Shown here: one piece after another, positions 25,307-28,811 of the stretch
Layout of the letters: the number at the start of each line of letters is the position of its first letter
Numbering within the stretch: the first letter of the stretch is position 1
NCBI RefSeq assembly: GCF_015709515.1
Contig: NZ_JADNQZ010000052.1
Coordinates: forward strand, 62,001 to 126,000
Direction of reading: 5' to 3'
Length of the DNA stretch: 64,000 nucleotides
From: Methylocystis sp. H62
Lineage (GTDB): Bacteria; Pseudomonadota; Alphaproteobacteria; Rhizobiales; Beijerinckiaceae
Notes under the pieces: model-generated
What the model was told of the DNA's origin: nothing
Database searches by the model: none
The model's input: the letters and a program-made list of their open reading frames with translations, nothing else
Position numbers and translations under genes: made by a program

Positions 25307-25442
25307 GCTGGTGAAAAATTTCCAATCCAATCCGTTTTGATGAGGCGAACCTTCGACTGAAGTTTGTAGATTTTTCGGGCACTTGAAGCCTTCGCGCCTA
25401 CAGCTTCGTCGGATTGCATAAAAGGAATTGTGCGGAGGGCTT

Positions 25443-25871
25443 ATGGAGACCAAGAAGCTGGCGACGGGCGCCGCCCCCCGCAAACTCGGCGACTATCTCA
25501 CGCGCGCGCGCGACAAAGCGCCAGCGCATGCGGGTCATGGCGCGGGCGGCGCGCAGTCGGTGCGCGAGGACAATTATCGCGGCCACGAGATCGAAATCGT
25601 CACGACCTACAAGATCCTGGTCGACGGAAAGAAGATCCGCGCGCCGCTCGGCGTCGATGCCTCCGGCCAGGTTCATTGTCATTCATTGCCGAACTACCAG
25701 ACCGCGTCGGCGGTCGACATGGTGCGGGCGCTGATCGACGGCTTTCCCGAGGAGTTCGAGCGAAAGTCGGCGCCGAGCAAGAGCCGCCCTCCTGCAAGCC
25801 ACAAGCGCCGGCCCGCTCCTGCGCGCAAAAGCAGGCCCGCAGTGAAGAAAGGCTCAAAACACGAGCATTGA
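25443..25871 (+). CDS. MelC1-like tyrosinase copper caddie (putative)
   Basis: I recognise this 142-residue protein by its pattern and its neighbour. The core NYRGHEIEI..YKILVDGKKI (45-66) and HCHSLPNYQTASAVDMVRALID (78-99) follow the order of Streptomyces MelC1: Y-x-G-x-x-I, then Y-x-V-x-V-D-G, then a tyrosine segment and a closing helix. Tyr85 would correspond to the MelC1 tyrosine that enters the tyrosinase active site. HCH (78-80) could bind copper. Unlike MelC1 there is no Tat or Sec signal peptide, and the last 35 residues are strongly basic, ending HEH. A good ribosome site (GGAGGG) precedes the ATG; a TTG at 25428 is less likely. The tyrosinase gene follows 35 bases later. A distant relationship is inferred, not proven. 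Confidence 0.6.
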   Translation: METKKLATGAAPRKLGDYLTRARDKAPAHAGHGAGGAQSVREDNYRGHEIEIVTTYKILVDGKKIRAPLGVDASGQVHCHSLPNYQTASAVDMVRALIDGFPEEFERKSAPSKSRPPASHKRRPAPARKSRPAVKKGSKHEH

Positions 25872-25897
25872 TTTTCAGGCGAACATTGATTTTCAGG
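25866..25897 (+). repeat. Tandem duplication before the tyrosinase gene
   Basis: The 14-mer CATTGATTTTCAGG occurs at 25866-25879 and 25884-25897, an 18-base period. The first copy includes the stop codon of the caddie gene. A related ATTGATTTTCA recurs at 26885-26895, just after the tyrosinase stop. The duplication lies immediately upstream of the tyrosinase ribosome site (GGAGAGAG). Confidence 0.7.
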
Positions 25898-25906
25898 AGA
25901 GAGACG

Positions 25907-26872
25907 ATGGCCGTCGTCCGAAGCAATATTTCAACGAATGCAGGGGTTCGCGATCAATATATTGAGGGCGTCAAACTATTGAAAAAAGAGGCGTCCGGCC
26001 GAACGACGGATGAATTCGGCATTCCGGGCGCCGCGCGCTCAGTGAGCACCTACGATCTTTTCGTCATCTGGCACGTCACCGCAATGATGATCGAGACGCC
26101 GCCGGGAAATCCCGCGCAGCGGAACGCGGCGCACCGCGGGCCGATTTTCGCGCCATGGCACCGTGTGATGCTGATGGTTTTCGAACAGAACCTCCAGCGG
26201 GTCCTGGCCGACGCGAATTTTGGTCTGCCCTACTGGGATTGGGCGGAAGACGGCGACCTTCCGCCCCAGGAGCAGAGCGCGGCCACAATCTGGGGCGCGG
26301 ACTGCATGGGCGGCGAAGGAAATCCGGTCGCTAGCGGCCCGTTCGCGTTTCACGCAAACGATCCATCCGCGTTCAGAGTGCGCATCTCCACGAATATCTC
26401 CGGAGAGTTGCGTTCGGTGAACCGCGGCCTCCGGCGGGCCTTTGGCGTGAGCGCCGACGCGCTGCCGAGAACGGCGCATGTGACGAATGCGCTGGCGCTG
26501 TCGCCCTATGATTCGCCCGGTTGGGACGCCGACGCGAACAGCTTCCGTAATCGCATCGAAGGGTGGATGAACGACGACGGCGTTTCCACGACCGCGATGC
26601 ACAATCTCGTCCACGTCTGGATTGGCGGAGAGATGTTGCTTGGCTCCTCGCCCAATGATCCGGTTTTCTTTCTCAATCACTGCAACATTGATCGCCTCTG
26701 GGAGAGTTGGATGTCCCGAAACGGGCGCGTCTACGTTCCCGACATGACGGCGGGCGCGGATCTCAAAGGTCATCGCATCGACGATCCGATCAGCTCGCCG
26801 CTCGGCCTCAGCGCCACGCCGCGGGAGACGCTCGACGTCAGCGCGATCTACGAATACGACGCGCTCATTTGA
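25907..26872 (+). CDS. Tyrosinase (type 3 copper polyphenol oxidase, MelC2-like)
   Basis: Tyrosinase hydroxylates monophenols and oxidises the diphenols to quinones, the first steps of melanin formation. The 321-residue protein carries the six copper-ligand histidines: His56, His76 and His85 for CuA (AAHRGPIFAPWHR) and His232, His236 and His258 for CuB (AMHNLVHVW, FFLNHCNIDRLW). PYWDW (108-112), the DGPF-like SGPFAF and SPNDPVFFLNH also match Streptomyces MelC2 closely. There is no signal peptide and no C-terminal cap domain, as in MelC2. The frame is open further upstream, but the ATG at 25907 has a strong GGAGAG site and the expected N-terminus. It lies between the caddie-like gene and the lipase-like gene on the same strand. 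Confidence 0.93.
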   Translation: MAVVRSNISTNAGVRDQYIEGVKLLKKEASGRTTDEFGIPGAARSVSTYDLFVIWHVTAMMIETPPGNPAQRNAAHRGPIFAPWHRVMLMVFEQNLQRVLADANFGLPYWDWAEDGDLPPQEQSAATIWGADCMGGEGNPVASGPFAFHANDPSAFRVRISTNISGELRSVNRGLRRAFGVSADALPRTAHVTNALALSPYDSPGWDADANSFRNRIEGWMNDDGVSTTAMHNLVHVWIGGEMLLGSSPNDPVFFLNHCNIDRLWESWMSRNGRVYVPDMTAGADLKGHRIDDPISSPLGLSATPRETLDVSAIYEYDALI

Positions 26873-26913
26873 GCGCCAAAGCTTATTGATTTTCAATTGA
26901 ATTCGGATCGGCG

Positions 26914-28104
26914 ATGGCGCTCAAATCCACTCATATTGTTTTCGTGCATGATTTCTTCGGCTGGGGGCCTCAAGAGTTCGGACTTCCCTATTGGGGCGAC
27001 GCGCTCGATCAGATTGGCGAACCTTTCGCGGTCCATGAAGCGAAGGTGGGAGCGGTCAGCTCGTTCCATGATCGCGCCTGCGAGCTTTTCGCTCAGATTG
27101 CCGGCGGACGTGTGGACTATGGCGCCCGGCATAGCGATGAGGCATGCCACGCCCGCTATTCGCGGGAATATGCAGACCCGTTTGCGCCCGAATGGTCGGC
27201 GGAGAACCCGGTGATCCTCGTCGGCCATGGCGCAGGCGCCCAGACCGCCATGCAGTTGCAGGCGCTGCTCGCCAGCGATTTCTGGGGGCAAGGGACAAAC
27301 GCCGGCTGGGTGGAAGGCGTGATCAGCGTCGCCGGCGCCATCAACGGCTCGTTGCTTCCCTATGGCTTTGGATGCGACCGGGTAAATGGCCGGCTTAACC
27401 GCAAACCAAGCCGGCTTATCGCGGAGTCGTTCAACTTTCTTGGGATGGCCGCCGGCGTGCCGAGCGCCATGCGCAGGCCCTTCGATCTCCATCTCGACCA
27501 ATGGACCGACGGCGAAGTTGACTCGAAAACGGCGATGGCGCGTCTGGACGCCGGCGCCTTCGTCGCGGGCGAGGACAATCTCGCCTTCGACATGACGCTG
27601 CAGGGCTGCCGCAACGCCAACGCGCGGTTCAGATCGCACCCGGACACCTATTATCTGTCGCTGGTGACCAACGCCACGCATGTTCGGGCTTCCGGCTTTT
27701 TCAGCAAAACCTGGCGGCCCGACCCGACGATCCATCCCGTTCTCTGGCAGCCGGCGCTCTACCAGGCGCGCGAGGCCAACTTCGCCAAGGCGCCGATCGT
27801 CGGTTGGGGCGGCGGCGACCTTTCGCTGCCGCAGTGGCGGCCCAACGACGGCGCGGTGAGCGTCATCTCGCAGAGATATCCCTTTACGGCGCGGGAAGAG
27901 CCCGTGGGAGGCGAAGGCGTCTTTAAACGCCAAAGGCTCAAGCCGGGGCGCTGGTATTACGAGTATCTTGACAAGGCCATTGGCCAGCGGTTCGACCATT
28001 TCGACGCTGTCGTCGGCGCGCAGCTCAAACCATGGGTGCCCGGACTGCGCGATGCGCATCGGGAGATCTATCTGAGGCTCGGCGAAACCTTGCGCAGCCT
28101 GTAG
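26914..28104 (+). CDS. Family I.5-type lipase homologue lacking the nucleophilic serine
   Basis: The 396-residue protein aligns by eye with Bacillus/Geobacillus family I.5 lipases: IVFVHDFFGWG (9-18), VSSFHDRACELFAQIAGGRVDYG, FDLHLDQW, TYYLSL and FDHFDAVVG. The lipases' zinc ligands are matched by Asp53, His73, His79 and Asp195. Asp312 (NDG) and His362 (DHFD) match the catalytic acid and histidine. The nucleophile elbow, AHSQG in the lipases, reads GHGAG (104-108), with Gly106 in place of serine and no serine nearby. It may be a pseudoenzyme or use another chemistry. No signal peptide is seen. It follows the tyrosinase by 41 bases on the same strand, and I infer co-transcription. Confidence 0.82.
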   Translation: MALKSTHIVFVHDFFGWGPQEFGLPYWGDALDQIGEPFAVHEAKVGAVSSFHDRACELFAQIAGGRVDYGARHSDEACHARYSREYADPFAPEWSAENPVILVGHGAGAQTAMQLQALLASDFWGQGTNAGWVEGVISVAGAINGSLLPYGFGCDRVNGRLNRKPSRLIAESFNFLGMAAGVPSAMRRPFDLHLDQWTDGEVDSKTAMARLDAGAFVAGEDNLAFDMTLQGCRNANARFRSHPDTYYLSLVTNATHVRASGFFSKTWRPDPTIHPVLWQPALYQAREANFAKAPIVGWGGGDLSLPQWRPNDGAVSVISQRYPFTAREEPVGGEGVFKRQRLKPGRWYYEYLDKAIGQRFDHFDAVVGAQLKPWVPGLRDAHREIYLRLGETLRSL

Positions 28105-28121
28105 CCTTATCTGAAGAGCGG

Positions 28122-28811
28122 CTAATGCATGCCGCCAAAACCTTGTGATCGCAGCGCGTCCATGACGCCGTTGAAGATCAGCGACACGCCCATCGCCGAG
28201 ACGAAAAAGCCGACGATCCGGGTCGCGGCGTCGATTCCCAGCGGCCCGAGCGTTGTGGTCAACCGCGTCGCGAAGGCGAGGCACGCGTAAGTGACGCCCA
28301 CGGCGAGAAAGATCGCGACGAGAATGACTCCGAACGCCAGCGCCTCATGGGACGAGTGCTCAACGGTGGCCATCATCCCGAGCACGGTGGCGATCGGGCC
28401 GGGGCCGATCATGAGCGGCATCGCGAGCGGCATGAAGGCGATATTGCCCGTCGATCTGGCGAACGCCGGCGTTCCGTCGCCGTCCGACGAGGGCAAAAAA
28501 AGCTCAAAGCCGATCTTCATCAGCACGATCCCGCCGGCGATGCGCACCATGCTGAGCGAGACGCCGAAGATTTTTAAGATCACCGCGCCAAAGAACAAGA
28601 AGAAGAGGATCAGCAGCAGCGCATAGAGACAGGACATGAAGGCCACGCGACCGCGCTCCTGGTTGCTTTTCTCGCGCAGGAGCAAAAGGAAGACCGGGAG
28701 CACCTCAAAAGGATTGATGACCGCCAGCAGCGTCGTGAACGTCGAGAAAAAGAGCGTCAACTCGGTTCTGAAAGCTCCGGCGCCGATGTCCGAGACGAGA
28801 CTACTGTTCAT
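28122..28811 (-). CDS. MarC family integral membrane protein
   Basis: The 229-residue protein has about six hydrophobic helices. The MarC-family features are present: TLLAVINPFEVLPVFLLLL near the N-terminus, IAGGIVLMKIGFELF in the middle and AMPLMIGPGPIATVLGM. MarC proteins are inner-membrane proteins of unknown substrate; the old link to antibiotic resistance is weak. It converges on the lipase-like gene, with 17 bases between the stops. Confidence 0.9.
   Translation of the reverse strand: MNSSLVSDIGAGAFRTELTLFFSTFTTLLAVINPFEVLPVFLLLLREKSNQERGRVAFMSCLYALLLILFFLFFGAVILKIFGVSLSMVRIAGGIVLMKIGFELFLPSSDGDGTPAFARSTGNIAFMPLAMPLMIGPGPIATVLGMMATVEHSSHEALAFGVILVAIFLAVGVTYACLAFATRLTTTLGPLGIDAATRIVGFFVSAMGVSLIFNGVMDALRSQGFGGMH

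Follow-up and report, generated by a model that had tools for sequence, protein, structure and literature searches.

The window, the 64,000-nucleotide stretch of Methylocystis DNA analyzed here, encodes a protein that is, by sequence, a homologue of the family I.5 lipases lacking two catalytic features of that family. Glycine occupies the position of the nucleophilic serine (position 106) and aspartate that of the glycine in the HG oxyanion motif (position 13). The serine loss and the oxyanion motif change are kept in 18 genomes, and one related genome still has a serine (Ser) form next to the same neighboring gene. The protein has probably ceased to be a classical lipase, yet is still under selection for another job. 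On the best reading, this lipase-fold protein does not use acyl-serine chemistry on its ligand, which it either binds or acts on in some other way. Serine loss is already known elsewhere among alpha/beta hydrolases, for example in neuroligins. No description of the paired Ser to Gly and Gly to Asp change was found in the portions of the open-access literature searched. The clade with the glycine (Gly) form is a natural and clean example in which to ask how serine chemistry is abandoned by a hydrolase fold, and the carriers of this serine-less lipase relative are a group of methane-eating bacteria.

A homologue of the family I.5 lipases

The lipase homologue is a single-copy gene in the genome of the window (Table 1). 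Its product matched Pfam family PF24708 (Lip_C) with an E value of 2e-23, the best stretch being residues 7-120. Against solved lipases, phmmer returned 8yye_A as the best match (E 2.4e-32) and L1 lipase 1ku0 at 2.7e-23, and a profile of the window protein with nine Ser-type relatives matched 1ku0 at 6.8e-82. The family I.5 homology proposed in the first-pass annotation is borne out by these matches. With the Geobacillus lipases L1, T1 and P1 and their solved relatives (8yye, 5ah0, 5ah1; PF24708) the window protein shares similarity over most of its length, the four zinc residues, the Asp and His of the catalytic triad, elbow glycines G104 and G108, and Phe14 at the oxyanion residue. It differs from them in the Ser to Gly change, in the change of HG to HD and in having no room for a signal peptide.

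A secretion signal is typical of family I.5 lipases. None is apparent at the N-terminus of the window protein, where MALKS stands directly before the first strand motif. Since the protein starts about six residues ahead of this motif and the frame upstream of the ATG continues for only 8 codons, a signal peptide would not fit. The absent leader suggests that the lipase homologue is cytoplasmic.

A 463-aa open frame runs antisense to the gene. Among the 17 full copies, variable sites of the + frame fell 89/63/297 by codon position, and in 16/17 stops within the gene span interrupt the antisense frame, indicating that coding is on the + strand. Antisense coding was rejected and the 463-aa frame attributed to chance.

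Table 1. Positions of features in the window
Feature	Position	Strand	Basis or remark
Lipase homologue (zinc family I.5) without the serine, 396 aa	26914..28104	+	intact ATG-to-stop frame
Codon 13, GAT Asp, at Gly of relatives' HG oxyanion motif	26950..26952	+	alignment and codon counts
Codon 53 Asp, zinc-site residue	27070..27072	+	by alignment
Codon 73 His, zinc-site residue	27130..27132	+	by alignment
Codon 79 His, zinc-site residue	27148..27150	+	by alignment
Codon 106, GGC Gly, nucleophile position (GHGAG)	27229..27231	+	alignment and codon counts
Codon 195 Asp, zinc-site residue	27496..27498	+	by alignment
Codon 312 Asp, acid of former triad	27847..27849	+	Asp in 17/17 readable Gly-clade copies
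Codon 362 His, base of former triad	27997..27999	+	His in 17/17 readable Gly-clade copies
Tyrosinase (PF00264)	25895..26872	+	41 bp upstream of lipase homologue, same strand
147-aa frame	25428..25871	+	upstream of tyrosinase
463-aa open frame	26893..28284	-	antisense to lipase homologue

Loss of the catalytic serine and gain of an aspartate

In three pairwise alignments with solved lipases, Gly106 aligned to the catalytic serine of GHSMG/AHSMG and Asp13 to the glycine of the HG oxyanion motif. All 18 close copies from the genus have glycine in place of the serine of the family's GxSxG or AxSxG elbow (17 GGC, 1 GGT), and all 18 have aspartate at the HG glycine, encoded by GAT throughout. One of these copies (G212) is cut by a contig end after residue 298, leaving residues 312 and 362 unread and 17 readable copies. 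The Ser forms used for comparison are eight intact, more distant relatives within the GTDB family, Beijerinckiaceae, of which two belong to the genus itself (genomes G199, G200, G609, G161, G174, G606, G128 and G042). They are of similar length and 45-52% identical to the window protein by tblastn. Ser106, encoded by AGC, and Gly13 were present in 8/8. The two changes therefore occur together in 18/18 Gly copies and neither occurs in the 8 Ser forms. The first-pass annotation had read a GHGAG elbow with a GGC codon at the serine position; this reading and the conservation of the glycine across the clade are confirmed. The accompanying G13D change, which it had missed, is fixed in the whole Gly clade.

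A wider set of 23 rows comprised four same-family relatives, two Treponema, two Bacillaceae, one relative from a viral contig and 14 phylum rows. Ser106 and Gly13 were found in 23/23. A broken copy from G172 was left out of this set and of the codon counts; its upstream piece, read apart, has Ser106 and Gly13. A match of about 89 residues in G013 (L025, E 7.8e-5) was left out as doubtful.

AGC differs from GGC by one base. A sequencing error at codon 106, named in the first-pass annotation as a possible refutation, was rejected because a glycine codon is present in 18 genomes. A replacement serine nucleophile was also rejected: the sole clade-specific serine listed, S241, which replaces threonine of 7/8 Ser forms, is far from the motifs in the sequence.

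Another departure in the oxyanion motif was seen in two Ser-bearing relatives, L043 (G200) and L024 (G172), where proline replaces the histidine of HG. Separately, the Ser-type relative in G172 (L050, contig G172:C57; also L024/L026) is split into two frames with internal stops.

Distribution and origin of the Gly form

Among 39 genomes of the genus, 20 had a match, 18 at 87-100% identity and two at 51%. The lipase homologue had no match in the other 19/39, some of them incomplete, suggesting that it is dispensable. A scan for close relatives across species gave 16 loci. Ten Methylocystis loci, one Methylocystaceae locus and three from genomes named Alphaproteobacteria bacterium were 87-96% identical; two Treponema loci were 32-34% identical. 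Family samples gave matches in 9/199 and 17/264 genomes; none of these was intermediate in combining Ser with Asp13 or Gly106 with Gly13. The order and class samples matched in the window's own genome only (1/397 and 1/385). Scans of viral contigs yielded a single distant relative, L064 (with L065 denoting the same contig).

A tree of 30 rows, built with both trait columns included, places all Gly forms in a single clade (support 100/100); it does not resolve how the Ser relatives branch, and long branches are flagged among them. The grouping indicates a single origin of the Gly clade.

Nine Ser-type homologues share 40 invariant positions, and the window protein deviates from them at 13, 47 and 106. 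Because position 47 is variable inside the Gly clade, 13 and 106 are the only clade-wide changes among the family-invariant positions. Within the clade 39/40 of these positions are fixed compared with 278/396 overall (hypergeometric P 6e-6, treating positions as independent). On a nearer scale, the 8 same-family Ser forms share 105 invariant positions, and six of these carry a change fixed in the clade: 13, 89, 106, 143, 147 and 173. Four of the six lie elsewhere, so the active-site pair arose along a longer stem.

Ligand binding or altered catalysis

Comparison places Ser106 to Gly and Gly13 to Asp on the stem of one Methylocystis clade, which retained the zinc quartet, Asp312/His362 and the remaining framework of family-invariant positions. 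With the nucleophile serine lost, an acyl-serine intermediate could not form. An acyl or lipid-like ligand would then be held in the old pocket by a binding, carrier or sensor protein. We tentatively favor, with confidence just short of even, a cytoplasmic protein derived from the zinc I.5 lipase fold that lacks the serine and binds such a ligand without cleaving it. In a related lipase, the S116A mutation led to loss of activity, yet fatty acid was still held close to the active site (PMC7096528). By analogy, this mutant is a precedent for the proposed binding role of the window protein.

Several observations fit poorly with simple binding. The new carboxylate beside an oxyanion residue is left unexplained and might even repel the carboxylate of a fatty acid, and a pure binder has no need of the retained Asp/His pair. 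The fixed changes at 89, 143, 147 and 173 mean that the active-site changes are not the only ones, and the gene is missing in 19/39 genomes of the genus.

A lesser but real possibility is a retooled enzyme, in which the Asp13 carboxylate lies near the vacated serine space and works with His362-Asp312, either in a general acid-base pair or itself as a relocated nucleophile. Its reaction would be of lyase, dehydratase or hydrolase type without acyl-serine. The changes hit the nucleophile and the oxyanion motif jointly (18/18 both, 8/8 neither), and the codons of Asp312 and His362 vary synonymously in the Gly clade while the residues stay fixed. According to PMC7096528, the backbone nitrogens of Phe17 and Met117 form the oxyanion hole of the related lipase; these residues correspond by motif to Phe14 and Ala107 of the window protein. 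Since Phe14 is an oxyanion residue by motif, residue 13 adjoins the reaction center in sequence, which also favors a retooled enzyme. Against this, with 278/396 positions invariant in the clade, two conserved residues alone are weak evidence, and the AlphaFold2 models, from shallow alignments (16 and 13 sequences), had mean pLDDT of 36.6 and 39.5, too low to place the Asp13 side chain. The second model, at this low confidence, has a strand at 100-104 and a helix from 107, which fits a nucleophile elbow. More doubtful is the specific proposal that the nucleophile moved, with loss of the elbow serine coupled to gain of Asp13 to create a new Asp13-His362-Asp312 center on the I.5 scaffold.

Neuroligins are a known comparison for the serine loss; in these, glycine substitutes for the serine. 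They are not known to have a zinc site or a coupled Asp. Unlike the window protein, they are membrane proteins of the cholinesterase family. PMC12931606 describes neuroligins as cell-adhesion proteins that are related in structure to acetylcholinesterase and have no catalytic serine.

The interpretation in the first-pass annotation holds in part: the gene is intact, constrained and conserved for Gly, but the suggested link to tyrosinase and the metal-centered enzyme found no support.

Relation to the neighboring tyrosinase

The gene order in the window is recJ (-), the 147-aa frame, tyrosinase, the lipase homologue, marC (PF01914, -), an aldose-epimerase family gene (PF01263) and cysK. The names recJ and cysK, which carry no Pfam accession, are assigned from the sequence. 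The lipase homologue could be a partner or maturation scaffold of the tyrosinase, as their adjacency on one strand across 41 bp would suggest. Throughout the genus a close tyrosinase is present in 12/18 Gly genomes, adjacent by coordinates. All 12 adjacent copies are Gly, so serine beside a tyrosinase, the other refutation named in the first-pass annotation, did not occur. Nevertheless a partner role is improbable. Among 14 named loci, tyrosinase adjoins the gene in 8 and recJ adjoins it without a tyrosinase match in 5; one is cut (the L011 contig begins 248 bp before the gene, leaving the upstream neighbor unread). The five loci adjoining recJ, whose upstream border is readable, still carry Gly106. 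The Gly genomes without a close tyrosinase (G217, G218, G219, G221, G222 and G223) group on the tree; G217 and G221 are only 64 and 59% complete, and G223 has a 40% tyrosinase match with a stop, located elsewhere. Conversely, the lipase homologue is missing from G208, which carries a tyrosinase at 62% identity. In G199 the Ser form lies beside recJ without a tyrosinase; rlpA and dacC follow beyond recJ on the upstream side, matching the window. These patterns indicate that Gly and tyrosinase are separate traits, contrary to the tracking anticipated in the first-pass annotation.

The genomic place of the Ser form appears to be that of the Gly form, judging from the recJ/rlpA/dacC surroundings that G199 shares with the window. 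The downstream genes of G199 differ from those of the window.

The 147-aa frame is present in the same 8/14 named loci as the tyrosinase and in 0/5 of those without it. It has a weak match to CGDB (PF19906), below the cut-off, and may be a tyrosinase partner. Methylocystis rosea is listed among wetland hosts of tyrosinases in PMC9454253, and the word lipase is absent from that paper.

The zinc site

The zinc-site residues Asp53, His73, His79 and Asp195 and the pair Asp312/His362 are kept as the first-pass annotation stated; the zinc quartet aligns with the family I.5 ligands in identity and spacing and is retained in 17/17 full Gly-clade copies. This conservation could point to a metal-centered enzyme using the zinc site for catalysis. 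The quartet is also present in 6/7 intact same-family Ser forms (G606/L044 was read at the active-site columns and not at the zinc columns) and in 14/23 rows of the wider set. In PMC8168862, the zinc ligands of T1 lipase (D61/H81/H87/D238) make up an ordinary four-residue site of known lipases. There is nothing new at this site in the Gly clade, and a zinc-based reaction, also suggested in the first-pass annotation, seems very improbable.

One Ser-type relative, L022 (G128), has Glu instead of the fourth zinc residue, Asp195. The calcium-site region of T1 (G286/E360/D365/P366) aligns with gaps to the window protein in one profile alignment.

Selection on the gene

The first-pass annotation had called the gene intact, and it is also constrained. 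Pairwise dN/dS had a median of 0.105 (range 0.060-0.179; 136 pairs from 17 full copies), and the same method gave 0.108 on the named loci. The median falls inside the 0.014-0.185 range of nine neighboring genes: recJ 0.123, dacC 0.089, tyrosinase 0.118, marC 0.143, epimerase-like 0.162, cysK 0.056, orf94 0.014, mobA 0.185 and lpg 0.077. Because its dN/dS is comparable to that of its neighbors, the gene is constrained like that of a working protein. Decay en route to loss, which the 19 genomes without a match and the broken Ser-type relative in G172 might suggest, is scarcely credible, as this selection pattern contradicts it and none of the 18 Gly copies contains a stop.
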